The notes under the pieces: generated by a model
Told to the model about the DNA's origin: nothing
Database searches by the model: none
Seen by the model: the letters and a program-made list of their open reading frames with translations, nothing else
Program-made: the position numbers and the translations under genes
Shown: one piece after another, positions 2,057 to 30,443 of the stretch
How positions within the stretch are numbered: the stretch's first letter is position 1
Layout of the letters: each line of letters starts with the position of its first letter
NCBI GenBank assembly: GCA_019694145.1
Contig: JAIBCJ010000005.1
Span: forward strand, 1 to 55,458
DNA: 55,458 nt
From: Solirubrobacterales bacterium
GTDB lineage: Bacteria > Actinomycetota > Thermoleophilia > Solirubrobacterales > 70-9
Reading direction: 5' to 3'

Positions 2057-2512
2057 CTACCTGGGTTCCCAGGCGTCCTTGTCATCGGCCAGCCGCTGAA
2101 CGTTGTCCGGGAGGTTCCCGGAGACGAGGTCGGCGAGGCTGGTTGATTCCAGCACGTCACGGAGGCTGGCGCGGACAGCAATCCAGACATTCTGGAGTTC
2201 CCTGGCGCTGCCGGTGTAGGTGATCGACTCGGGCGGAGCCGACTGGACGTGGGCGATCGGACCTTCGACCGCGCGGATCACGTCGGCGATCGAAACGTCT
2301 TCGGCCGGCTTGGCCAGCCAGTAGCCACCCTTGGCGCCGCGACGGGCGCGGACGATCCCCGAGTGCTTCAGGTCGAGCAGGATGTGCTCGAGAAACTGAA
2401 GCGGGATGTCCTGGGAATCGGCGAGTCGTTCACCCTTGACCGGCCCGTCCGGAGACGCGGCGAGTTCGGCAACTGCCCTGACGGCGTAATCGGCCTTGGC
2501 GGAGACGCGCAT
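2057..2512 (-). CDS. Rrf2-family transcriptional regulator
   Basis: 151 residues, the normal Rrf2 length. The N-terminal winged helix is classic: MRVSAKADYAVRAVAELA, then LADSQDIPLQFLEHILLDLK as the recognition region, and the wing with GGYWLAKPAEDVSIADVIRAVEG. The protein has no cysteine at all, so it cannot bind the Fe-S cluster of IscR or NsrR; this places it nearer the cluster-free CymR/CysR type that controls sulfur metabolism. The gene lies 123 bp downstream of a TauE/SafE exporter on the same strand, which fits a sulfur-related role, but the link is inference. A weak -10-like TTTACT ends 6 nt before the ATG, consistent with a short or absent leader. Confidence 0.88.
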   Translation of the reverse strand: MRVSAKADYAVRAVAELAASPDGPVKGERLADSQDIPLQFLEHILLDLKHSGIVRARRGAKGGYWLAKPAEDVSIADVIRAVEGPIAHVQSAPPESITYTGSARELQNVWIAVRASLRDVLESTSLADLVSGNLPDNVQRLADDKDAWEPR

Positions 2513-2635
2513 GGGCCTAGTAAATCAGCCCGAACCGGCGCGGGTCCGCAGGCTGCCGGGCCCGGTCACGGTATTTCGCGATCAAATCGGTCAGCAGAAT
2601 CGGGAATTTCGCTTCCCGAGGCGCGGAAGGCAGTG

Positions 2636-3574
2636 CTAATCGGCTTCCGGGGGCTGTTTCCCGGCTGCCCGCTGTTCCGCGGCGATCGCTTCCGGGGGCC
2701 GGAAATGCTGGTACCACCGCGGTGCCATCAGGATCAGCGCGAAGCCCATGCCGGCCACCACCGCGGCGATCGGCCAGACCACGGGGTCGCCCTTCTGAAC
2801 GGTGAAGATGCCGGAGAGAATCAGCACCAGGCCGAGGGCGATCCGGATCCCGTCCTGGTTGACCCGGTTCATCAGTGACGCGCCCACCACGACGCCGGGG
2901 ACCGACCCGAGCAGAATGTTGCCGACCAGGCCGAGGTCCACGTTGCCGTGGCCGAAATGGGCAATCCCTGCGGCCCAGAGCACGATTGCCGCGTGAAAGA
3001 CATCGGTTCCGACCACGCGCTTGGGGGTCAGTCGGAAGACGGCGATCAACAGCACCGCGATCACCGTTCCGGAGCCGGCCGAGGTGACGCCGATCACGAA
3101 TCCGGTGGTGGCCCCGATCGTGACGGCGGCGACCTTGTGCCGGAGTTCGATCTTGAAGTCATCCCGCTCGCTGATAGTGCGGGCGAGGATCAGCGCCCGG
3201 CCGAGCGTGATGATGCCGACCATGAGCAGCGTCCCGCCCAGTACGGCATAGACCAGCGAATCGAGCTTGTCTTCACCGAGCCGGTCCTGAAGCCAGGAAA
3301 CAAGCTGAACTCCAAAGACCGCGGCCGGCACGGACCCGCAGGCGAGCCAGAAGACGAGGCCCATGTTGACCGTCTTCATCTTGAAGTGGCGCCAGCCGCC
3401 GACCGTCTTGGTGACCGCGGCGTAGAGGATGTCGGTGCCGATCGCGGTGGTCGGCGAAACCCCGAACAGCAGGATCAGGAGCGGAGTCATCAGGGCACCG
3501 CCACCCATCCCGGTCATGCCGACCAGGACTCCGATGCCGAAGCCGAAAAAAAGGATCGCTATTGAAAAGTCCAC
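2636..3574 (-). CDS. TauE/SafE-family sulfite/sulfonate exporter-like membrane protein
   Basis: 312 residues with about eight hydrophobic segments. The N-terminus (FFGFGIGVLVGMTGMGGGALMTPLLILLFG) and the second half (GFVIGVTSAGSGTVIAVLLIAVF) are the two repeat motifs of the TauE/SafE (formerly DUF81) family; characterised members export sulfite or sulfoacetate. The last ~30 residues form a charged cytoplasmic tail. Start is GTG 3574; no clear Shine-Dalgarno or -10 is visible immediately before it. It is followed on the same strand by an Rrf2 regulator without cysteines, suggesting a sulfur theme. It diverges from the ThiXYZ-like operon, and the shared intergenic region holds an 8-bp-arm palindrome (3643-3663). 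Substrate is not determined by sequence. Confidence 0.85.
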   Translation of the reverse strand: MDFSIAILFFGFGIGVLVGMTGMGGGALMTPLLILLFGVSPTTAIGTDILYAAVTKTVGGWRHFKMKTVNMGLVFWLACGSVPAAVFGVQLVSWLQDRLGEDKLDSLVYAVLGGTLLMVGIITLGRALILARTISERDDFKIELRHKVAAVTIGATTGFVIGVTSAGSGTVIAVLLIAVFRLTPKRVVGTDVFHAAIVLWAAGIAHFGHGNVDLGLVGNILLGSVPGVVVGASLMNRVNQDGIRIALGLVLILSGIFTVQKGDPVVWPIAAVVAGMGFALILMAPRWYQHFRPPEAIAAEQRAAGKQPPEAD

Positions 3575-3642
3575 TGGGTTCGCTGAGGCAGGATCGATGC
3601 TGTGACGGTGCTGGCGCGCCGGGCTAGGAGCGCTCCCGACTC

Positions 3643-3663
3643 TCCTTACTTGTTTAGTAAGGA
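3643..3663. promoter_or_regulatory. Palindrome between divergent genes (possible operator)
   Basis: TCCTTACT, five bases, AGTAAGGA: a perfect 8-bp inverted repeat that is AT-rich against a GC-rich background. It sits 69 bp upstream of the exporter start (3574) and 54 bp upstream of the ABC operon start (3718). Its symmetry and location suggest a repressor site for one or both genes. The regulator is unknown; the Rrf2 protein next door is a candidate by proximity only. Confidence 0.5.
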
Positions 3664-3704
3664 ATGCGGGAATGTCGGCATCCTAGTGGTTTGGGCAGCG
3701 GACC

Positions 3705-3710
3705 TACAAT
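3705..3710 (+). promoter_or_regulatory. -10 box TACAAT, leaderless-type
   Basis: TACAAT ends 7 nt before the ATG at 3718, so transcription should begin at or next to the A of the start codon. There is no Shine-Dalgarno sequence. No convincing -35 is seen 16-18 bp upstream. Confidence 0.6.
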
Positions 3711-3717
3711 CCCGGCG

Positions 3718-4491
3718 ATGACAGCAACCGTTTCTGCCCGCGGGCTGACCCACAGATTCGGACCGCTGGACGTCCTGGGGGGAGTCGACCTCGAGATCGA
3801 AGCCGGCGCGTTGCTCGCCCTGGCCGGGCCCTCGGGATCCGGCAAGTCGACCCTGCTTGAAATCACCGGGGGCCTGCGGGAGCAGTCCGGCGGACTGGTC
3901 GAAGTGAACGGCAGCGCCGACGCCGCGGGGCGGCTGCGAGGCTGCGCCTGGATGCCGCAGCGCGACTGCCTGCTGCCCTGGTATTCGGCCCTGGACAACG
4001 CCAGCCTGGCCCTGGTCAACCAGGGGAAATCCCGGCGGGAGGCGAGAAAGTCGGCGGCGGAACGGTTCGAGCACTTCGGCCTGGAGGGTTTCGAGACCGC
4101 CCGCCCGGACGAGCTTTCCGGTGGCATGAGGCAGCGCGTCGCCTTCATCCGCACCCTCCTTTCCGCCAAACCGGTACTGCTGCTCGACGAGCCGCTCGCC
4201 GCGCTCGACGCGATCACCCGGGCCGAGCTGCAGGAATGGCTGACTCCGGTGCTCCGGGAAAGCGGGGCAACGGTGCTGCTGGTGACCCACGACGTCGAGG
4301 AGGCGATCTACCTGGCCGACCGGGTCACCGTCCTCTCCCCCCGGCCCGGGCGGAGCATCGCCACGATCGACGGGATGAGAGGCAGCCCGGGCCGCCGCGA
4401 CGAGGTGGTCAGCTCGCCGGCCTTCAACCGGAAGCGCGAGGAGCTGCTGGGGCTGCTTCGCAGCGACCAGGCCCGGGGGGCAGCCCGTTGA
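3718..4491 (+). CDS. ABC transporter ATP-binding protein, ThiZ/SsuB/TauB type
   Basis: 257 residues. Walker A GPSGSGKST at residues 37-45, Q-loop in WMPQRDCLLPW, signature LSGGMRQRVAF, Walker B VLLLDEPLAALD, and H-loop LLVTHDVEEA are all intact. The sequence belongs to the nitrate/sulfonate/taurine importer ATPase group. The following genes encode a matching permease and a ThiY-like binding protein, so the likely cargo is a thiamin pyrimidine precursor. Start chosen at ATG 3718 because a TACAAT -10 lies 7 nt upstream and because the ABC domain begins right after it; the upstream in-frame ATG at 3664 would add an unrelated tail. The TGA stop overlaps the permease TTG start as TTGA. Confidence 0.9.
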   Translation: MTATVSARGLTHRFGPLDVLGGVDLEIEAGALLALAGPSGSGKSTLLEITGGLREQSGGLVEVNGSADAAGRLRGCAWMPQRDCLLPWYSALDNASLALVNQGKSRREARKSAAERFEHFGLEGFETARPDELSGGMRQRVAFIRTLLSAKPVLLLDEPLAALDAITRAELQEWLTPVLRESGATVLLVTHDVEEAIYLADRVTVLSPRPGRSIATIDGMRGSPGRRDEVVSSPAFNRKREELLGLLRSDQARGAAR

Positions 4492-5246
4492 AGGCAAGGA
4501 TCTGGCTGCCTCCGCTTCTGCTGGTCCTCTTCCTGCTCGGCCTCTGGCAGCTGGCCGCTTCGAGCGGCTTCCTCGCCGACGTGCTCGGTCTCGAGGATTT
4601 CCTCGTGCCCGCACCATCGGAGATCGCCGATGTGCTCTGGCAGGACCGCGACCTGATCTTCGACAACGCGGGCACGACCCTGGTCGAGATCGCCGCCGGC
4701 TTCGGCCTGGCCCTGATCTCCGGCCTCGCGGTGGCGGTCGCCTTTCGCGGTTCGGACCTGGTCCGGCGGGCGGGCTACCCGCTGGTGGTCGCCTCCCAGA
4801 CCATCCCGGTTATCGTGATTGCCCCGGTTCTGGTGGTCTGGTTCGGCTACGGGATCTGGCCGAAGCTGCTCATCATCAGTCTGATCTGCTTCTTCCCGAT
4901 CACCGTCAACACGCTGGACGGCCTCCGCCGGGTCGACCCGGAAGCGGTGCGGATGATGCGCTCACTGGACGGCTCCCGGATGACCATCTTCCGGCGGGTC
5001 GAGGTGCCGACCGCCCTGCCCGGGGTATTCACCGGGGCGAGGATCGCCGCCGCGGTCGCCGTGATCGGTGCGGTCTTCGGCGAATGGGCCGGATCCGACA
5101 AGGGGCTGGGGCACCTGATCCTCCAGGACAACGCCCAGCTGATGACCGCGCGCATGTTCGCCTCGGTCTTCGTGCTCTCCCTGATCGCGATCAGCCTTTA
5201 CGCCCTGATCGGCCTGCTGGAACGGGCTGTCGTGCGTTGGCGGTAG
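4488..5246 (+). CDS. ABC transporter permease, ThiX/SsuC/TauC type
   Basis: 252 residues, about six membrane segments, with the binding-protein-dependent inner-membrane signature around LDGLRRVDPEAVRMMRSLDGSRMTIFRRVEVPTALPGVFTGARIA, which contains the EAA-like loop that contacts the ATPase. Start is TTG 4488, overlapping the ATPase stop as TTGA; the sequence from LKARIWLPPLLLVLFLLGLW on is the expected first membrane helix, which supports this start over longer frames upstream. It forms an operon with the ATPase before it and the binding lipoprotein 58 bp after it. Confidence 0.9.
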   Translation: MKARIWLPPLLLVLFLLGLWQLAASSGFLADVLGLEDFLVPAPSEIADVLWQDRDLIFDNAGTTLVEIAAGFGLALISGLAVAVAFRGSDLVRRAGYPLVVASQTIPVIVIAPVLVVWFGYGIWPKLLIISLICFFPITVNTLDGLRRVDPEAVRMMRSLDGSRMTIFRRVEVPTALPGVFTGARIAAAVAVIGAVFGEWAGSDKGLGHLILQDNAQLMTARMFASVFVLSLIAISLYALIGLLERAVVRWR

Positions 5247-5304
5247 CTGGCGGCAATAACCTCTATAGGCTCCTTCCCATCCTGTTCACGTCCCCGGAGA
5301 TGAC

Positions 5305-6330
5305 TTGAGACGATTCTCACTGCTCCCCCTCGCAATCTTCGTTGCCCTCGCGGTCACCGCCTGCGGCACCAAGTCGGAGGAAGTGAACCCGGTCCGGGAT
5401 CCCCTGACCGTGGCGATGGACTGGTACCCCAACCCCGATCACGCCGGCTTCCTGGTCGCCGAGAAGCAGGGCTACTTCGAGGATGCCGGGCTCGACGTTT
5501 CGCTCGATTCCCCGACCGATCCCTCGCTCCCGATCAAGCTCGTCGCCGCCGGCAAGGCCGACCTCGCGCTTTCCTACGAGCCGGAGGTGCTGCTGGCCCG
5601 CGAGCAGGGTCTCGACGTGGTTTCAGTTGCGACGGTGATCGGCCGGCCGCTCACCTCGATGATCTGGCTGAAGAAGTCGAAGGTGAAGAGTGTCAGGGAC
5701 CTCAAGGGCAAGACTGTTTCAACCGCCGGGATTCCCTACCAGGACGCCTACCTGAAGACGATCCTCTCGCGGGCGGGACTGAGCGAGAACGACGTGAAGA
5801 AGGTCGGGGTCGGCCAGGGCCTTCTGCCGTCGATCGTCAGCGGCCGGGCCCAGGCGACGCTCGGCCCCTTCTGGAACATCGAGGGAATCGAACTGAAGAA
5901 GGAAGGCCTCAAGCCGACCGTGAGCCCGGTCGACAAGCTCGGCGTCCCGACCTATAGCGAGCTGGTCCTGGTCGCCAAGGGCAGCCGGATCGACGAAGAC
6001 CCGGACCCGATCCGCCTCTTCATCACGGCACTCGGCCGGGGAACCGGTTTTGCGGTCTCCCATCCCAACCAGGCAACCAGCACCGTGCTCGAAGCCAATG
6101 ACGCCCTGAAGCCCGAGGTCACGGCCGCCCAGATGAAGGCGACCCTGCCGCTGCTGGGCGCGCCCGGAGGCGCGAAGGACGCGGTTCCGTTCGGTCACCA
6201 GAGCACCGTGAAGTGGCAGGCATTCATCAACTGGATGGTCCAGCAGGGAGTGCTGGCCAACTCGCAGCGCGCGGTCGACGCCCTGACCAACGAGCTTCTG
6301 CCCAGCAAGCGGATAGACGTGGATCAGTAA
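5305..6330 (+). CDS. ThiY/THI5-like substrate-binding lipoprotein of the ABC importer
   Basis: 341 residues. Lipoprotein signal with lipobox LAVTACG (Cys20). The segment AMDWYPNPDHAGFLVAEKQG is the hallmark of the NMT1/THI5-like group that includes ThiY, which binds formyl-aminopyrimidine, a breakdown product of thiamin. LVAAGKADLALSYEPEVL continues the match. The protein would sit on the outer membrane face and feed the permease. Start is TTG 5305 with GGAG 5 nt upstream; the overlapping ATG at 5300 is in another frame. No TPP riboswitch is visible ahead of the operon. The pyrimidine substrate is inferred from family; an alkyl sulfonate or other small molecule is possible given the exporter next door. 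Confidence 0.8.
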   Translation: MRRFSLLPLAIFVALAVTACGTKSEEVNPVRDPLTVAMDWYPNPDHAGFLVAEKQGYFEDAGLDVSLDSPTDPSLPIKLVAAGKADLALSYEPEVLLAREQGLDVVSVATVIGRPLTSMIWLKKSKVKSVRDLKGKTVSTAGIPYQDAYLKTILSRAGLSENDVKKVGVGQGLLPSIVSGRAQATLGPFWNIEGIELKKEGLKPTVSPVDKLGVPTYSELVLVAKGSRIDEDPDPIRLFITALGRGTGFAVSHPNQATSTVLEANDALKPEVTAAQMKATLPLLGAPGGAKDAVPFGHQSTVKWQAFINWMVQQGVLANSQRAVDALTNELLPSKRIDVDQ

Positions 6331-6334
6331 GTAC

Positions 6335-6358
6335 GCATTCCGGTCTGCGCCGGAATGC
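6335..6358 (+). terminator. Hairpin after the ThiXYZ-like operon
   Basis: GCATTCCGG, six bases, CCGGAATGC: a perfect 9-bp stem starting 4 nt after the TAA stop at 6330. No U-run follows, which is common in GC-rich actinobacteria. Confidence 0.6.
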
Positions 6359-6373
6359 CAATGAAACCCGTGC

Positions 6374-6408
6374 GTCCGTTCAGGACATCAACGACTTGAT
6401 GAACGGAC
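6374..6408 (-). terminator. Hairpin after the DNA glycosylase gene
   Basis: GTCCGTTCA and TGAACGGAC form a perfect 9-bp stem around a 17-nt loop, 4 nt beyond the stop of the minus-strand gene ending at 6413. Together with 6335-6358 each convergent gene has its own hairpin. Confidence 0.5.
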
Positions 6409-6412
6409 TCCG

Positions 6413-7429
6413 TTATGCGGCGGGTCGCAGCTGCTGGCGGATCCGGGCCCGGTTGCCCGGGCCGTGAACCGCCGAGCCGTAGGCCATGGCGATGTACTCG
6501 CCGGCCAGGCCCCGCCAGGGTGCGTACGGGGCATAGAACTCTTCAACCTCTTCGACCTCGGCCAGCCGGCCCAGGCCTTCGAGGTAACCGACCAGTTTGA
6601 CCTGGCTGAGGTCGCCGGCCAGCAGCGCGTCGGGCTCACCGCGGCCACGCAGGGCCAGGCAGGCGATCGTCCAGGGGCCGATCTCCGGGATCGCCAGCAG
6701 GCGCTTGTCCCCGGCTGGGTCCGCCGGGTCGACCCGGCCCGAGGCGACCTCGCGGGCAACCTTGACCATGGCGATCGAACGCCGTGGACTGAGCCCGCAG
6801 GCCTCGAGAGCGGCCGGAGCGGCACCGGCGATCGCCGCGGGGGTGGGCACGGTCATGAGGCTCGGCTGTTTCCGGCCGCGAGGCGAGCGGGGAAGCCGGT
6901 TTCGGCCGTCATCGGCGCCGAGCGCCACACCGGGCGAGAGGCGGACCCCGAAGCGGCGGATCAGCTGCCGCTGGATCCGGGCCGCCCGGCTGTACTCGAT
7001 CAGTTGCTCGGTGATTGCCCAAAGCAGGGCCTCCCAGGCGACCGGCCGCCGCATCGGCCGGTACTGGAGACGACCGTTCAGGGCCCGGCCGAGCAGCGGA
7101 TCCTCGCGAAATGCGTTGCGGAACCCGGCCAGGTCGTCGTCAACTCCGAGGCTGAAGCGCAACCTGGAGATCCCCTCCTCGAGCGCCGGTTCCCCCGCCT
7201 CCTTCAGGCAGGGCGAGCCCGGACCTTCGAGCAGAGCCGGATCGACCGGTTCGGCCGCGAAGACGAACTCGCCACGGGCTGCCTCGCGGACCCGGACGAT
7301 CATCGCTTCATCGGAAAGGATCAGCAGCCGCTCAAGCCAGGGGCCACGCAGCCTGAAGACCAGGTCACCGCCAACCAGGCGGGGCATGCGTAGCGGTGCA
7401 ACGGGCCTGACCACGCGCTCGGCGATCAC
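6413..7429 (-). CDS. DNA-3-methyladenine glycosylase II (AlkA-type, HhH-GPD)
   Basis: 338 residues. Removes alkylated bases by cutting the N-glycosidic bond (base excision repair). The helix-hairpin-helix region reads LAIPEIGPWTIACLALRG and is followed by DALLAGDLS, in which the Asp aligns with catalytic Asp238 of E. coli AlkA. The N-terminal half (residues 1-150) is the divergent AlkA-N region. Start is GTG 7429, 10 bp after the stop of a small membrane protein gene, so the two probably form an operon. A second, unrelated methyladenine glycosylase (Tag type) lies at 44547. The assignment of fold is firm; substrate range is inferred. Confidence 0.85.
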   Translation of the reverse strand: MIAERVVRPVAPLRMPRLVGGDLVFRLRGPWLERLLILSDEAMIVRVREAARGEFVFAAEPVDPALLEGPGSPCLKEAGEPALEEGISRLRFSLGVDDDLAGFRNAFREDPLLGRALNGRLQYRPMRRPVAWEALLWAITEQLIEYSRAARIQRQLIRRFGVRLSPGVALGADDGRNRLPRSPRGRKQPSLMTVPTPAAIAGAAPAALEACGLSPRRSIAMVKVAREVASGRVDPADPAGDKRLLAIPEIGPWTIACLALRGRGEPDALLAGDLSQVKLVGYLEGLGRLAEVEEVEEFYAPYAPWRGLAGEYIAMAYGSAVHGPGNRARIRQQLRPAA

Positions 7430-23145: not shown

Positions 23146-23207
23146 TTCGAGAAAGTCGTCCCCCGGCCGTTCGCAACTTGGCTTGCCCGGTCGGTTTTCG
23201 GGTACGG

Positions 23208-24434
23208 ATGAAGATCATGGGAAGACTTACTTGCCTCACCGCAGCCGTTTTCGCCACTCTCGCGCTCTCGTCGGCCTCGCTTGCCTGCGCCGAAGGTGAC
23301 GGCGGTAACCCGCCGGAGCGCGCCGCCACCGGCAAGGTTTCGGTCGGCGGGCCGGATGCCGCCGGCGCCTCGGCCGGGCACGGCAAACTTCGGGCAACCC
23401 GGGTCGGCTTCTTCAACGAACCGGTTGAAATCCGGCACGCCCCCGGTTTCCCGAACCTGATGTTCGTGGTCGAGCAGCCGGGCCGGATCATGGTGATCCG
23501 ACGCGGCAGGAAACTGGCCCGGCCCTTTCTCGACATCAACCGGCTGGTCAGCAATGACGGCGGCGAGCGAGGTCTGCTTTCGGTTGCCTTCCCGCCCGAT
23601 TACAGGAAGAGCAAACGCTTTTACGTCTATTACGTAGACAACGCCGGCAACATCCGGGTCGCCGAGTTCCGGCGCCGGACCGCGGTCCGAGCCCGCCGGC
23701 ACTCCGGCCGAACGGTGATCCGGATCGCCCATCCGGTCAACAGCAACCACAACGGCGGCCGGCTCGGTTTCCTCGGCCACGACCTTTACTTCGGCACCGG
23801 TGACGGTGGCGGCGCGGGTGACGAGCCCGGCAACGCCCAGAACCTCAACTCGCTGCTCGGCAAGCTGATCAGGATCGACCCCCGCCGCAGCGGAAAGCGT
23901 CCCTACACGGTGCCCGCCAGCAACCCGTTCGTCGGTCGTCGCGGCCGGGACGAGATCTTCGCCTACGGCCTCCGCAATCCCTTCCGCTGGTCCTTCGACC
24001 GGACCAGCTCGAAGCGCAACGTCCGGATCGCGATCGGCGACGTCGGCCAGGACGCATTCGAGGAGGTCAACTACCTCAACCTGAGCCGGGCCAGGGGCGG
24101 CAATTTCGGCTGGAACCGCTGGGAGGGTTACACCCCCTTCAACGGAGGCGGGGCCGGGACGATCAAGCCCTCGCTGGTCCTCCCCCATCCCCCCAACTGT
24201 TCGGTGATCGGTGGCCTCGTGGTTCGTGACCGCCGCCTGCCGGCCCTGCGCGGGCGGTACGTGTTCACGGATTTCTGCAGCGGAAAGATCCTCAGTTTCA
24301 AACCTCATCTCGGCCGGGCGGCCGGCCGCCCGACCGGCCTCAACATCGGCCAGGTCACCTCTTTCGGTGACAGCCTCGGCGGTGCGCTTTTCGTCACTTC
24401 GCTGAATGGCAGCGTCTACCGGATCAGGCAGTGA
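23208..24434 (+). CDS. PQQ-dependent sugar dehydrogenase-like protein (sGDH/YliI type), copy 1
   Basis: 408 residues. Signal peptide ending near SLACAEG; because the hydrophobic stretch runs into a Cys, a lipoprotein is possible. The six-bladed propeller of the GSDH family is clear: FPNLMFVVEQPGRIMVI, GERGLLSVAFPPDY, SNHNGGRLGFLGHDLYFGTGDGGG, GKLIRIDPR, RDEIFAYGLRNPFRWSFD and IGDVGQDAFEEVNYL. The catalytic His corresponds to that in SNHNGGRL. Members oxidise aldose sugars extracellularly with PQQ. No PQQ biosynthesis gene is in the window. The GTG start of copy 2 overlaps this stop as GTGA. Confidence 0.88.
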   Translation: MKIMGRLTCLTAAVFATLALSSASLACAEGDGGNPPERAATGKVSVGGPDAAGASAGHGKLRATRVGFFNEPVEIRHAPGFPNLMFVVEQPGRIMVIRRGRKLARPFLDINRLVSNDGGERGLLSVAFPPDYRKSKRFYVYYVDNAGNIRVAEFRRRTAVRARRHSGRTVIRIAHPVNSNHNGGRLGFLGHDLYFGTGDGGGAGDEPGNAQNLNSLLGKLIRIDPRRSGKRPYTVPASNPFVGRRGRDEIFAYGLRNPFRWSFDRTSSKRNVRIAIGDVGQDAFEEVNYLNLSRARGGNFGWNRWEGYTPFNGGGAGTIKPSLVLPHPPNCSVIGGLVVRDRRLPALRGRYVFTDFCSGKILSFKPHLGRAAGRPTGLNIGQVTSFGDSLGGALFVTSLNGSVYRIRQ

Positions 24435-25669
24435 ATCCGACCCGGCCAGCGACGGGCCCGGCCCGATTGAAACTCCGGGCGTTCCTGTTCGCGGCCCTGG
24501 CCGGTTTCGTTCTCTTCCTGACCGCGGGCGATTCGGCCGGCGCCGCACCGAAACTCGGTTACACCAGGATCGCGACCGCCAGGGAACCGACCGCCCTCGT
24601 TTCCCCGCCCGGCTACCCGCGGATGCTCTTCGTCACCGAGCGGGCCGGTTTCGTTCGCGTAATCGCCAACGGCAGGAAGCTGAAGCAGCCCCTGCTCGAC
24701 CTCACTTCGAAGGTCGGTTCGAGCAACATCGAAAGGGGTCTGATCGGACTCGCTTTCGCCCCGGATTTTCGGACCAGCGGCCGCTTCTACGTCGATTACA
24801 CGGCGAAGAACGGGAACTCGATCGTGGCCGGGTACCGGACCGTTCCCGGCCAGCCGACCCGGCTTGCGCGGGGCGGCGGCCGGCTTGTGATCCAGATCCC
24901 GCGGGTCAACAACAAGGGCAACCACAACGGAGGCCACCTCGCCTTTCGCGGCAATCTTCTCTACATCGCGGTCGGTGACGGCTTCGACCCAGGTGACGCC
25001 CCGGATCACGCCCGGAACCTGAACAGCCTGCGCGGCAAGATCCTGCGGATCGACCCCCGGCCGGATCAGGGGACCGGAAAGCCGTACCGGATCCCGGCCG
25101 GCAATCCCTTCGTCGGCCTTCCCGGACGCGACGAGATCTTCGCCTACGGGCTGCGCAACCCCTTCACCTTCAGCTTCTTCAACTCCGGCGGCGAGGCGAT
25201 GATGTCGATCGCCGACGTCGGCCAGCTTCGCTACGAGGAGCTGAACGTCCTCCCCTTCGCCGAAGCGCGGGGGGCCAATTTCGGCTGGAAGGGTTTCGAG
25301 GGCTTCGAGCCCTACAACTGCGGCGAGTCACTTTGCCCGAACGGCGCCGACCCGGTGGTTGCCACCGGCCTGAAATGGCCTCAGCTCGTCTACTCCCACG
25401 ACGAGGGCTGTGCGATCGTCGGCGGCCTGAAGATCAGCGACCCGAAACTGACGGCGGTCAGGGGAAGGATCATCTACGGCGACTTCTGCAGCGGCCGGAT
25501 CCGAACGGCCCTGCCACACAGCCCGACCATCGTCGATGACAGGCCGATCGGCTTTTCGCTGCCGGCCAGGCATGGAGTCACGCTGCTGAACGGCTTCGGC
25601 GTCGACGGCCTCAAGCGCCTTTACGCCTTCAGTCACCTCGGCGGCATTTACCGGCTGATCCAGCGCTGA
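24431..25669 (+). CDS. PQQ-dependent sugar dehydrogenase-like protein, copy 2
   Basis: 412 residues; a tandem paralogue of the preceding protein. Signal peptide (LFAALAGFVLFLTAGDSAGAAP), then the same propeller blocks: YPRMLFVTERAGFVRVI, IERGLIGLAFAPDF, NHNGGHLAFRGNLLYIAVGDG, GKILRIDPRPDQ, RDEIFAYGLRNPFTFSF, IADVGQLRYEELNVL. Extra cysteines (YNCGESLCPN) differ from copy 1. Start GTG 24431 overlaps the TGA of copy 1, so both are made from one message. Substrate and cofactor are inferred from the family; some members do not bind PQQ. Confidence 0.88.
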   Translation: MNPTRPATGPARLKLRAFLFAALAGFVLFLTAGDSAGAAPKLGYTRIATAREPTALVSPPGYPRMLFVTERAGFVRVIANGRKLKQPLLDLTSKVGSSNIERGLIGLAFAPDFRTSGRFYVDYTAKNGNSIVAGYRTVPGQPTRLARGGGRLVIQIPRVNNKGNHNGGHLAFRGNLLYIAVGDGFDPGDAPDHARNLNSLRGKILRIDPRPDQGTGKPYRIPAGNPFVGLPGRDEIFAYGLRNPFTFSFFNSGGEAMMSIADVGQLRYEELNVLPFAEARGANFGWKGFEGFEPYNCGESLCPNGADPVVATGLKWPQLVYSHDEGCAIVGGLKISDPKLTAVRGRIIYGDFCSGRIRTALPHSPTIVDDRPIGFSLPARHGVTLLNGFGVDGLKRLYAFSHLGGIYRLIQR

Positions 25670-27523: not shown

Positions 27524-27925
27524 CTAGGGGTTGAGCGTGGAGCCGGTTACTCCGGTGGTTCCGGTCGCGCCGGTCGCGCCGGTCGTGCCGGTTGAGGGCT
27601 TGACGAGGATCGTTCTGCCGTCGTCGAGCTGGTAGACGGTGCCGAGCGGCTCGCCCTGGCCGACCACGGTCTGGCCGGGCTCGATCGTGATCTGTTCGGT
27701 GGTCTCGTCCGGTTGGGTAACGACCGAGTTCTCGGGGACGGTGTTCGCCGGTGAGGTGTCGTTCTGCGAGAGGGCCTCGGTGGTCAGGTTGAGCGAGGAA
27801 AGCGCGGCCAGGAGGAAACCGACCGAGAGGATGATCCCGATGTCGAAGAGGTTGACCAGGCCGTCGAGCGGATCACCGGCGCGGTCCTCGCGGCTCCTCG
27901 CCTTGGCCGTCACCTTCATGGCCAT
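27524..27925 (-). CDS. DUF2149 (ExbD/TolR-like) membrane protein with collagen-like tail
   Basis: 133 residues. A short basic start, then DPLDGLVNLFDIGIILSVGFLLAALSSLNL, which matches DUF2149 with its single membrane helix and the acidic residue near its start, as in ExbD/TolR. The external part (ITIEPGQTVVGQGEPLGTVYQLDDGRTILV) is a small beta domain. The C-terminus has six Gly-X-Y triplets, mostly Gly-X-Thr (GTTGATGATGTTGVTG), like bacterial collagens. Start ATG 27925 overlaps the preceding TolQ-like stop as TGATG. It should partner with that channel protein to use proton flow for mechanical or regulatory work. Confidence 0.75.
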   Translation of the reverse strand: MAMKVTAKARSREDRAGDPLDGLVNLFDIGIILSVGFLLAALSSLNLTTEALSQNDTSPANTVPENSVVTQPDETTEQITIEPGQTVVGQGEPLGTVYQLDDGRTILVKPSTGTTGATGATGTTGVTGSTLNP

Positions 27926-28614
27926 CAGGGATTCCCCATCGAGACCTGGGTGCTGTGCCCGTGCTCGACCGGTGACGGCACGAAATGCCCGGCCAGGTGC
28001 TTGTCCGGCGCGAGGTTGGCGGCGGCGAACTCGACATCCGAAAAGTCCTGGGCGTAGATCCGGTCGCGGATCAGCGAGACGCCGAAGGAGAGCGCACCGG
28101 TGAGCAGGCCCGCCACGGTCACACCGAACGCGACCCGCAGGTTGTCGGTCAACTCGGTCACGTTGCCGTCCGCCAGTCCGGCCAGAGCCGGAGCCAGCGG
28201 GATCAGGGTGCCCATCAGGCCGAGTGCGGGGCCCATCCGGACCAGGATCCTCGTCCGTTCGAGCCGGCGCAGTGAGTTGTAGTCGTAATCGGCGAGTCGC
28301 TTGGCGATCCGGTTCTCCGCGTCGGGGGAGGGACGGAGGGTGACGATCGAGGTCATCGTCTCGCGCATCGGCCGGCTCCACGAAACCGAGGAAAGTGCCG
28401 AAATCGCCCCGATCTGATCGCCCTGCACGATGTCGACTTCGGCCTGGTCGACCGCATTCTCGAGCGCGTTGATCGACCGCCAGCGCCGGCGCCAGATTTC
28501 GGCCAGGAGGATCCCGATTTCGACGATCGACCAGGCCAGGGCCAGCAGCACCGCGACCAGGACTGGCCAGCGGAGAGCGTCGGAAACGGAGAAGAGGAAG
28601 TTTTCGATCTGCAT
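27925..28614 (-). CDS. MotA/TolQ/ExbB-type proton channel protein
   Basis: 229 residues, three predicted membrane helices: residues 17-38, then the pair around GPALGLMGTLIPLAPALAGLA and LRVAFGVTVAGLLTGALSFGVS. The last two contain the TolQ/ExbB signature (MGPALGLMGTLIPL, and AFGVTVAGLLTG with the polar Thr of the proton path). The cytoplasmic loop is the usual helical spacer. In diderm bacteria such channels drive TonB or Tol; here the partner is the coupled DUF2149 protein and no TonB or TolA is seen, so the output is unknown. Confidence 0.85.
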   Translation of the reverse strand: MQIENFLFSVSDALRWPVLVAVLLALAWSIVEIGILLAEIWRRRWRSINALENAVDQAEVDIVQGDQIGAISALSSVSWSRPMRETMTSIVTLRPSPDAENRIAKRLADYDYNSLRRLERTRILVRMGPALGLMGTLIPLAPALAGLADGNVTELTDNLRVAFGVTVAGLLTGALSFGVSLIRDRIYAQDFSDVEFAAANLAPDKHLAGHFVPSPVEHGHSTQVSMGNP

Positions 28615-28723: not shown

Positions 28724-29656
28724 ATGCTTCGCCCCCTGAAGACAAGCCTGGGACTGATCGCCTTCGCCTGCGTTCTGATCCTGCCGAACTTCGCCCAGGC
28801 CTTCGACGCCGGGGTGCGTACGCCCCTGCTCACCGATCGATCTCCCGGCGCGGTCAGCGTGCCTTTCGAAATCCCGGTCAGGCAGTCGGCCGCGGTTCCC
28901 CAGCCCCTGGATTTCGAGATCGCGGTCGAGGGTTTCCGCCTCGATCCGGCCCCCGCCGCCGATCTCCGCATCGGCTCGCTGGACATGGTCACCGACGCCG
29001 GTGACTTCGACAACAAGGCGATCTACTCGAACGGACCGGCGATCGACGGGGCCCGGACCTGGACCCTCGACTGGCAGCTCAGCAACCATCCGATCACCGC
29101 CACGGTCGAGGACGGGACCGGCCTGGGCCCGGCCGGTGAAAAGACCGTCGACGATGGCTCGACCCTGATCAGCTTCACGGTTCCCGGCAACTACCACGGT
29201 TTCCGCCTGATGGGCCTCAGCCTGCGATTCAACCAGCAGGAAAAAGGCATCCCCACCCCGGGTATCGGTGCTGTCAATCCGACCGCACCCGGCAGCTACC
29301 TGATCCGCAGCCGGATCGAGTCGGTCGCACCCGGGAGTTCGGTGAAGGTGGCTTCGACCCGGGTCCGGATCGGTCCGGATGAGACCAGGCCAAAGACCCG
29401 CCTGGCCGTGGGCGCGAACCGTTCCCGGGTGCGTCCGGGCGGTCTGGTCCGGTTCTCGATCCGGACCCTCAACGGCACCAGCGACTTCGTCACCGTGCGG
29501 CGTGGCCGCCATGAAATCGGGGAGCTCAAGGCCGGTCCGGCGGTGCGATACCTCTACTGGCGGGCGAGCCGGCGGCTCCGGGGCCGGAAGGTCACCTTCC
29601 ACTTCAAACCCGACAACGGCCCTGCCGGGAATCTCACCATCCGTGTGAAACAGTGA
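28724..29656 (+). CDS. Secreted protein, unknown function
   Basis: 310 residues. Sec signal peptide with cleavage expected after PNFAQA. The mature sequence is beta-rich with no cysteines and no recognised catalytic motif; the middle (DWQLSNHPITATVEDGTGLGPAGEKTV) and DFDNKAIYSNGPAIDG look like a carbohydrate-binding or jelly-roll type domain, and the last ~75 residues are a basic Ig-like domain (TRLAVGANRSRVRPGGLVRFSIRTLNG) of the kind seen at the ends of other exported proteins here. The promoter may be TATACG near 28709. Four bases separate its stop from the FhuF-like gene. Confidence 0.7.
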   Translation: MLRPLKTSLGLIAFACVLILPNFAQAFDAGVRTPLLTDRSPGAVSVPFEIPVRQSAAVPQPLDFEIAVEGFRLDPAPAADLRIGSLDMVTDAGDFDNKAIYSNGPAIDGARTWTLDWQLSNHPITATVEDGTGLGPAGEKTVDDGSTLISFTVPGNYHGFRLMGLSLRFNQQEKGIPTPGIGAVNPTAPGSYLIRSRIESVAPGSSVKVASTRVRIGPDETRPKTRLAVGANRSRVRPGGLVRFSIRTLNGTSDFVTVRRGRHEIGELKAGPAVRYLYWRASRRLRGRKVTFHFKPDNGPAGNLTIRVKQ

Positions 29657-29660
29657 CCGC

Positions 29661-30443
29661 ATGGCCGGGCCGCATGCGATCAACGGGTTCGACCGGACCC
29701 TGAGCCGGATCGGCACCGCGTCCGCGGACGGTTACGGGATCATCGTCCGTCGCCTGAAGGGCCCGGGTGACGGCTGGTTCTCCGCCTCGGAGCTGGATGG
29801 AAGCGGCCGCGTCCAGGCGCTCCTGCTTTCCCGGATCAGCGGCATGGCCGGCCCGCCCGAGGATCACCTGCGGGCGGAGTGGCTGCTCGAGAGCCTGGCC
29901 CGGGCGATCGCCGACCTCGGCGGCTCGTTCATCGTCGCTGCCGGCCAGTTGCCGGAGCTGACCCCGGAGAACATCCTGTTGGCAGCCGAGGGCGGCCTCT
30001 TCCGGGCGACGGCGGTGGCCAGCGACCGGGGCCTCGAAACTACCGACCCGCAATCGCTCGCCACAGCGGCCGGACCGTCGGACCTCGATGTCCTCGCCGA
30101 AGCGTTCCGCCGCGGTTTCGCCGACCTGCTGGCCCCGACCGTTGACTGGCTTGACGCCCAGGGCCTCAGACCGGCCAAGACGCTCTGGCACGCGGCCGCC
30201 GACCGGCTGGCCCAGGCACTGGTCTGGTCCGGCAAGGCTTTCGACCGTCCCGGACTTGCGCTCGAACTGACCAGGCTGACCGTCGGTCCCGATTGCCCGG
30301 ACCCCCGGCTCGCGATCCCGATCGAAAGAGCCGAGGACGACTGGGGCGACGAGTACCACCTCCGGAGCACCTGCTGCCTGGCCTACCGCACCGAAGGCGG
30401 CCAGCTCTGCCAGTCCTGCCCCCTGGTCAAGGACCGGGACTGA
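29661..30443 (+). CDS. FhuF-like ferric reductase with C-terminal [2Fe-2S] site
   Basis: 260 residues. The C-terminus has Cys238-Cys239-x10-Cys250-x2-Cys253 (TCCLAYRTEGGQLCQSCPL), the [2Fe-2S] ligand pattern of FhuF, which reduces iron(III)-siderophore complexes in the cytoplasm. The rest is helical and weakly conserved, as in the family. It follows the secreted protein gene by 4 bp and its TGA abuts the stop of the convergent DUF1697 gene (TGATCA). No siderophore transport gene is adjacent. Iron release is inferred from the family. Confidence 0.8.
   Translation: MAGPHAINGFDRTLSRIGTASADGYGIIVRRLKGPGDGWFSASELDGSGRVQALLLSRISGMAGPPEDHLRAEWLLESLARAIADLGGSFIVAAGQLPELTPENILLAAEGGLFRATAVASDRGLETTDPQSLATAAGPSDLDVLAEAFRRGFADLLAPTVDWLDAQGLRPAKTLWHAAADRLAQALVWSGKAFDRPGLALELTRLTVGPDCPDPRLAIPIERAEDDWGDEYHLRSTCCLAYRTEGGQLCQSCPLVKDRD

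Follow-up and report, generated by a model that had tools for sequence, protein, structure and literature searches.

The window analyzed here, a stretch of 55,458 nucleotides from a Solirubrobacterales bacterium (NCBI GenBank assembly GCA_019694145.1, contig JAIBCJ010000005.1, positions 1 to 55,458), encodes on its minus strand a TolQ/ExbB-family channel subunit (27925..28614) and, overlapping it, a DUF2149 protein (27524..27925). It is fairly probable that these two proteins make up a working motor acting on a separate surface protein, termed X, in heme uptake in the window's genus. Heme uptake is proposed because gene neighbors and shared losses point to HtaA/HmuTUV and X, and the likely work of the pair is metal-chelate import, with heme as the probable chelate in this genus. 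The genetic side of this account, comprising gene content, adjacency, shared losses and conserved motifs, was observed directly and is well supported. Judged by its taxon, the order Solirubrobacterales, the host is probably a monoderm, that is, without an outer membrane.

The TolQ-DUF2149 pair and the motifs of protein X

The channel subunit, of 229 residues, matches the Pfam family MotA_ExbB (PF01618) with 29.6 bits against a cut-off of 22.9, and the 133-residue partner matches DUF2149 (PF09919) with 50.9 bits against 27.1. Read directly on the minus strand, the stop codon of TolQ and the start codon of DUF2149 overlap as TGATG at 27927-27923. In an AlphaFold2 model of the DUF2149 protein (mean predicted local distance difference test score, pLDDT, 67), a single predicted transmembrane helix at residues 19-44 (27794..27871, minus strand) is followed by a disordered stretch, a two-strand hairpin (96-99/105-108) and a tail. 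The protein is therefore ExbD-like by topology; a Pfam scan at E 0.01 returned DUF2149 alone, with no ExbD family match. Near the helix start lies Asp28 (codon 27842..27844, minus strand), the candidate proton-carrying residue, which is conserved in at least 90% of the 56 rows of the DUF2149 alignment; across 50 distinct DUF2149 proteins the position holds Asp in 44, Glu in one and other residues in five. In TolQ, Thr136 of the second-helix motif GTLIP (codon 28207..28209, minus strand) and Thr166 of the third-helix motif (codon 28117..28119, minus strand) are invariant in all 45 aligned relatives, among which the block GPALGLMGTLIP is almost unchanged. By their motif context, both residues may be equivalent to the channel Thr of ExbB.

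Of 399 class genomes, 64 encode DUF2149, and named relatives with the pair include Solirubrobacterales metagenome-assembled genomes (MAGs), Conexibacter, Patulibacter, Nocardioides, Aeromicrobium, Galbitalea and Frondihabitans. Genes were called and clustered in 60 class loci plus the window; the named set comprised 80 loci, from which 14 loci of the window's genus were set aside by synteny, leaving 66. In most loci, TolQ is immediately preceded by the gene for X, a protein that begins with a signal-like segment, carries either a PKD or an alpha-alpha-toroid domain (Pfam Prenyltrans/SQHop), and has a single helix at its C-terminal end. X takes this position, on the same strand, in 51 of the 66 non-genus loci, with a 4-base overlap in 26 of those 51. 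In nine further loci, a gene of the PKD or toroid family lies at another place in the stretch (six clear X, three unclear), and in two a contig end cuts the locus.

Two short motifs recur in X despite a mean column identity of only 21% among 48 aligned PKD-type sequences. The first, termed the box, is V-x-G-x-phi-phi and lies in a linker outside the membrane, about 30-45 residues ahead of it; the second is G-x3-E within the C-terminal membrane helix. The PKD Trp, the box Gly and the helix Gly are each conserved in 48/48 aligned sequences, and the helix Glu, four residues on, in 46/48. Box counts were made on 50 X encoded directly upstream of TolQ (35 PKD-type and 15 toroid-type). The strict box was present in 33 of the 35 PKD-type proteins (shuffle mean 0.38, maximum 4) and in 7 of the 15 toroid-type proteins (shuffle mean 0.06, maximum 1), against a background of 54/748 other proteins of the loci at a comparable distance from the C-terminus; most of the other toroid-type X carry V-x-G-x-Pro-phi. 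A looser form of the box, found in 51/51 X, was set aside as uninformative, since 323 of the 748 background proteins match it too. The helix motif in the form G-x3-6-E was detected in 33/35, 4/4 and 14/14 members of the PKD-type groups, and in 5/15 toroid-type X versus 8/53 controls; these controls are weak, as many of them are hydrophobic segments from soluble proteins.

The X proteins of the window's genus, which are encoded far from TolQ, still carry both the box and the helix motif. In the AlphaFold model of the X of the window's genome, the N-terminal domain and PKD mostly exceed a pLDDT of 85, the helix spans residues 333-352, and the box block reaches 72 within a linker otherwise at about 53 or less. 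A fold assignment for the N-terminal domain was abandoned, as Foldseek gave generic immunoglobulin-like matches only, with TM-scores near 0.2. Taken together, the V-x-G box and the C-terminal helix may act as a docking signal comparable to the D-box and SHLS motif of TonB. In Ton motors, the SHLS motif is described in the TonB helix and the D-box about 15 residues from it, pairing as a strand with ExbD, whose Asp is described together with a Thr of ExbB (PMC12905483).

A distant heme operon, shared losses and other carriers

In the window's genome, X is encoded on another contig, C130, behind genes for a FecCD permease (273.6 bits), an ATPase (ABC_tran, 109.1 bits) and two HtaA proteins (93.4 and 45.3 bits). 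No substrate-binding protein gene was called on C130, which ends just before the permease, where relatives carry that gene. The operon HmuT-HmuU-HmuV-HtaA-HtaA-X, beside a gene that is presumably HugZ-like, was found in genus loci L132-L142 and L230-L233, complete in some and truncated by the end of a contig or stretch in others. Two genus genomes also carry an additional full-length X apart from the main heme operon, at G256:C3:291031-292245 and G399:C71:364-1557, and one of these copies has an internal TGA.

TolQ is present in 16 of the 18 genus genomes. HtaA was detected in 15/16 TolQ-positive versus 0/2 TolQ-negative genomes (Fisher p = 0.0196), and full-length X gave an identical table. 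In the two TolQ-negative genomes, G059 and G402, HtaA and X are both missing, and the aldehyde dehydrogenase, fhuF, DUF1697 and metH genes are kept around the empty site; in G059, a 251-residue gene without a match to window genes lies between the aldehyde dehydrogenase gene and fhuF. At class level, HtaA occurs in 32/64 DUF2149 genomes versus 36/335 others (p = 9e-12, a value that ignores kinship). In relatives of families f1 and f4, HmuT, HmuU, HmuV, HtaA, X, TolQ and DUF2149 form a single cluster, often together with the HugZ-like gene, a reading given to a recurrent neighbor with PNPOx and DUF2470 domains.

These results bear on several statements of the original prediction, which had been made from the sequence alone. 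It had described a TolQ/ExbB-like channel overlapping, by TGATG, a DUF2149 protein with one ExbD-like helix, and the Pfam scores, the overlap and the model agree with this. Its description of the pair as lacking TonB also holds: a search covering TonB_C, though not TolA, found that domain in 0/18 genus genomes, including the window's own (81% complete). Partner genes elsewhere in the genome had been envisaged as an outcome that would speak against it; this check had a mixed outcome, in that TonB is not found in other places, but another contig encodes X, a candidate partner of a different kind. The work of the pair, which had been left unspecified, can now be narrowed by neighbors and shared losses to probable heme uptake via HtaA/HmuTUV and a C-terminally anchored X.

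Other recurrent neighbors of the pair, named by their Pfam domains, include HtaA, FecCD permease, Peripla_BP_2, BPD_transp_1, PBP_like_2, the ECF (energy-coupling factor) S component and DUF4430. Across the 66 loci, the importers seen in the stretch are of Tup type (PBP_like_2/BPD_transp_1) in 22, of heme type (HtaA/HmuTUV) in 10 and of ECF type in 7; the substrate of the Tup-like set is presumably tungstate. Co-occurrence of DUF4430 across the class was uninformative, since that domain is present in 256/399 genomes, and clusters c35 and c36 were rejected as an importer because they are Rpe and RsmB. In addition, two loci from a Patulibacter MAG (L109 and L195) contain two tandem TolQ-DUF2149 pairs, preceded by a single toroid-type X and an ECF importer.

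In diderms, a different protein accompanies the pair. Plasmid searches with TolQ and the Trichlorobacter DUF2149 protein gave ten DUF2149 records, nine of which were examined. CobN is encoded in the same stretch in 9/9 (in the unannotated Pseudoalteromonas record by our own reading), with a C-terminal helix in 9/9 and a V/I-x-G-x-x-L/M box in 6/9. For comparison, ten CobN were taken from records in which DUF2149 has no match; most of them lie beside cobW or other cobalamin genes, and they had the helix in 0/10 and the box in 0/10. The CobN of Cupriavidus campinensis (L253, about 2428-6567) also carries a box and helix motif much like those of X. In Trichlorobacter lovleyi pGLOV01 (L234), genes for a TonB receptor, DUF2162, TolQ, DUF2149 and CobN are followed by separate ExbB, ExbD and TonB genes, all within one cobamide gene cluster; because ExbB, ExbD and TonB stand beside TolQ-DUF2149-CobN, the pair is not simply a TonB energizer. 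TolQ-DUF2149-CobN was further seen in a hydrogenase maturation cluster (Runella, L240) and near NikR (Azospirillum, L242), which suggests nickel as the metal for these members. HmuT of Bacteroidota was considered as an X and rejected for the several hydrophobic stretches in its sequence; it has been called a putative permease (PMC13227078).

Proposed mechanism and competing explanations

According to the proposed mechanism, TolQ and DUF2149 would assemble in the single membrane into an ExbBD/TolQR-type motor, driven by the proton-motive force and acting on X, the separate surface protein encoded at the end of the heme operon. X has an extracellular N-terminal domain and PKD domain, a flexible linker, the box, the C-terminal helix bearing G-x3-E, and finally a basic tail. 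At the surface, X, or X together with HtaA, would engage heme or a hemoprotein. X would contact the motor at two points, its box adding a strand to the DUF2149 hairpin and its helix docking on TolQ. Protons passing through TolQ, around Asp28 of DUF2149, would move the axle and pull X repeatedly; the assignment of X as the pulled component follows the analogy with TonB. The pulled X would then free heme, to be handed to HmuT and the ATP-binding cassette (ABC) importer; in diderms, CobN/HmuS would stand in place of X. Complex formation, proton flow, pulling and heme as the ligand of X are all predictions drawn from the genetic evidence and the motifs.

A wider reading is plausible but tentative, namely that TolQ-DUF2149 constitutes a separate class of motor, apart from ExbBD-TonB, in diderms and probably also in monoderms. 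Under this reading, the motor would pull interchangeable extracytoplasmic proteins (PKD, toroid/transcobalamin-like, or membrane-anchored CobN/HmuS) through a portable two-part signal; one part would be a V-x-G strand close to the outer face of the membrane, the other a single helix at the C-terminus. Where actinobacteria lack an outer membrane, the motor might power the passage of heme, tungstate and ECF substrates from the cell surface to importers.

Several observations weigh against the proposed heme-uptake motor. The pair has moved away from the heme operon in the window's genus and lies by itself, flanked by the aldehyde dehydrogenase gene and FhuF/metH, and the association within the genus rests on two losses in incomplete MAGs. 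One TolQ-positive genome, G383 (74% complete), has partial PKD matches but no full-length X, and its HtaA are only long proteins of another type (L143, L144); another, G242, has TolQ and X without HtaA, its X starting 21 bases from a contig end. Outside the genus, X is absent from 4/66 loci, no importer was seen in the stretch in 22/66, and five of the 66 have housekeeping neighbors only (RsmB, Rpe). HtaA is missing from 32/64 DUF2149 genomes of the class, so heme is not the sole ligand. The helix Glu is missing from 10/15 toroid-type X, and three HmuS-like CobN of Bacteroidales/Cytophagales beside HmuT lack the strict box. No TolQ or DUF2149 was found within 3 kb of the Cupriavidus CobN in L253. 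In five DUF2149 proteins of family f6 (L017, L018, L020, L027 and L029), Val, Thr or Tyr replaces the helix Asp; this branch may have lost proton use or employ the pair differently, possibly in a proton-independent way. Searches of PDB sequences found no relative of TolQ (profile, E 0.01) or of DUF2149, and Foldseek found no match to DUF2149 at E 0.001, with the low-confidence model (pLDDT 67) as the query; neither comparison showed an ExbD fold for DUF2149.

Competing explanations were weighed against the same evidence. The pair might be a vestigial, non-functional Ton remnant retained in a monoderm by chance or horizontal transfer, a view in keeping with the absence of TonB_C from all 18 genus genomes and with a 2025 survey in which incomplete Ton systems of Actinobacteria were judged likely non-functional (PMC12204202). 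This is considered rather unlikely, as the X/TolQ and TolQ/DUF2149 overlaps are conserved, invariant residues persist through 45 TolQ rows, presence and loss are shared with X and HtaA, and the pair occurs in several actinobacterial genera. It is similarly unlikely that the motor acts directly on an ABC/ECF importer or the cell wall, with X merely a co-transcribed ligand-binding protein. Three kinds of importer do occur near the pair, and in L197, L202 and L205 the position directly upstream is taken by ECF_S; however, X is the constant neighbor while importers change, and the box and helix motif are common to X of unrelated ectodomains and to diderm CobN.

An assignment of the pair to a ferric-siderophore system, together with the adjacent FhuF-like reductase, draws on the presence of FhuF beside TolQ in the window and in most genus members. 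The putative ferric reductase (29661..30443, plus strand; FhuF 25.7 bits, FhuF_C 29.9 bits) is a divergent neighbor, separated from TolQ by a secreted protein (28724..29656, plus strand) that has no Pfam match and belongs to a cluster (c28) found in 4 loci, in some genus members only. FhuF is encoded in 14 of the 18 genus genomes, being missing from 4/16 TolQ-positive and kept in 2/2 TolQ-negative ones (Fisher p = 1.0), and outside the genus its profile matched no neighbor of the pair. FhuF was rejected as the partner of the pair on its distribution across the 18 genomes, and the siderophore explanation appears quite improbable. On the same side as FhuF lie metH, on the plus strand, and DUF1697, on the minus strand; metH was also rejected as a partner, since it merely flanks the site and remains where the pair is missing. 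The other flank of the pair holds the aldehyde dehydrogenase gene and two sugar-dehydrogenase-like genes; these sugar/sorbosone-dehydrogenase-like genes adjoining the pair (window positions 23178-25669; L043) vary from one to four copies across genus members.

A collagen-like ending of DUF2149

The DUF2149 protein of the window ends in six triplets, GTT GAT GAT GTT GVT GST (27536..27589, minus strand, read directly). The original prediction had counted six Gly-X-Y triplets, correctly, and called them mostly Gly-X-Thr, although all six are of that form. The tail is not a product of chance, because a run of six triplets was never attained in 2000 shuffles of the tail and, at the DNA level, a 9-bp unit is repeated in tandem, with 3.6 copies. 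Neither is it peculiar to this gene, because Gly-X-Thr tracts occur on 11 contigs of the window's genome (G000), the window's own among them, with no match to a reversed control pattern. The further contigs are C3, C11, C77, C96, C98, C126, C156, C167, C189 and C213, and one tract on C96 covers about 2389-2747.

Among 16 genus orthologues, the window's included, 11-44 residues follow the conserved core, with 2-14 consecutive Gly-X-X triplets; 14 of the 16 have at least three in a row and the other two a run of two. Tail length varies within the genus, and outside it the tails of other class families are Pro/Thr-rich, only a few residues long or missing. That the tail is a working part, reaching into the wall or trimerizing, could draw on the runs of three or more triplets in most orthologues, but it is very improbable: their length varies, other families do without such a tail, similar tracts occur on ten further contigs, and the modeled tail has a pLDDT below 50. 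With its six triplets, no match to collagen in Pfam and variable counterparts among orthologues, the tail falls short of a long triple-helix collagen domain. A dimeric B subunit is described for 5:2 motors (PMC12905483), and a collagen-like triple helix would be ill-suited to such a dimer. Six triplets and no trimerizing domain, in a protein expected to be dimeric, likewise give no indication of a triple helix. The earlier suggestion that the tail is a functional clue hence finds no support, and the tail is a real but fast-changing low-complexity ending.

Significance and relation to known systems

Ton-type motors are generally taken to serve the energizing of the outer membrane. Here, a three-part candidate system emerges in probable monoderms, for example in Nocardioides sp. 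Root1257, Aeromicrobium sp. Root472D3, Patulibacter americanus and Conexibacter sp. With a predicted partner, contact motifs and nutrients, a Ton function in monoderms becomes directly testable, and what looks like a relic may be a working machine. Monoderm Ton components have been described as untested (PMC9389320). In the literature covered, which included few subscription journals or preprints and in part only portions of papers, no paper was found that describes X, its box, or an association of such a motor pair with HtaA/HmuTUV.

Related genes have been reported from diderms in other contexts. The hmu genes, including those for MotA/TolQ/ExbB and DUF2149 proteins, are regulated by iron/heme (PMC10434189). 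In Bacteroidota, HmuU and HmuV are depicted as powering HmuR, with an unclear role for HmuT (PMC12583661), and HmuV is reportedly without homology to a known family (PMC13227078). In Pseudomonas, PA1922-PA1925, including the DUF2149 gene, belong to the Zur regulon and are regulated by metal starvation (PMC9431628); PA1922 and PA1923 are also covered elsewhere (PMC8531726).

Compared with known systems, the window's genome shares HtaA domains and a HmuTUV-type ABC importer with the heme uptake system of Corynebacterium, for which the available portion of a description from C. diphtheriae (PMC8977872) does not mention the motor pair. With the Ton system (ExbB-ExbD-TonB), it has in common an ExbB/TolQ-family subunit, a one-helix partner with an Asp at the helix start, and a candidate force-receiving protein that is anchored by one helix, within which a motif is conserved, and that has a further short motif close to the membrane on its outer side. 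It differs in having no TonB_C and no ExbD domain by Pfam and a host that is probably without an outer membrane; moreover, X, with unrelated ectodomains, is anchored C-terminally and TonB N-terminally. The HmuYRSTUV system of Bacteroidota, in which HmuU is the MotA/TolQ/ExbB protein and HmuV the DUF2149 protein, likewise couples the pair with heme uptake, but it relies on a CobN-type HmuS with a C-terminal helix and an outer-membrane receptor, whereas the window's genome (81% complete) has the PKD protein X and no CobN was found in it. Finally, the diderm operon of TonB receptor, CobN, TolQ and DUF2149 (Pseudomonas PA1922-PA1925, Trichlorobacter, Azospirillum and Runella) contains the same pair, with a different partner protein, CobN, which has a C-terminal helix in the records examined, and in a different envelope.
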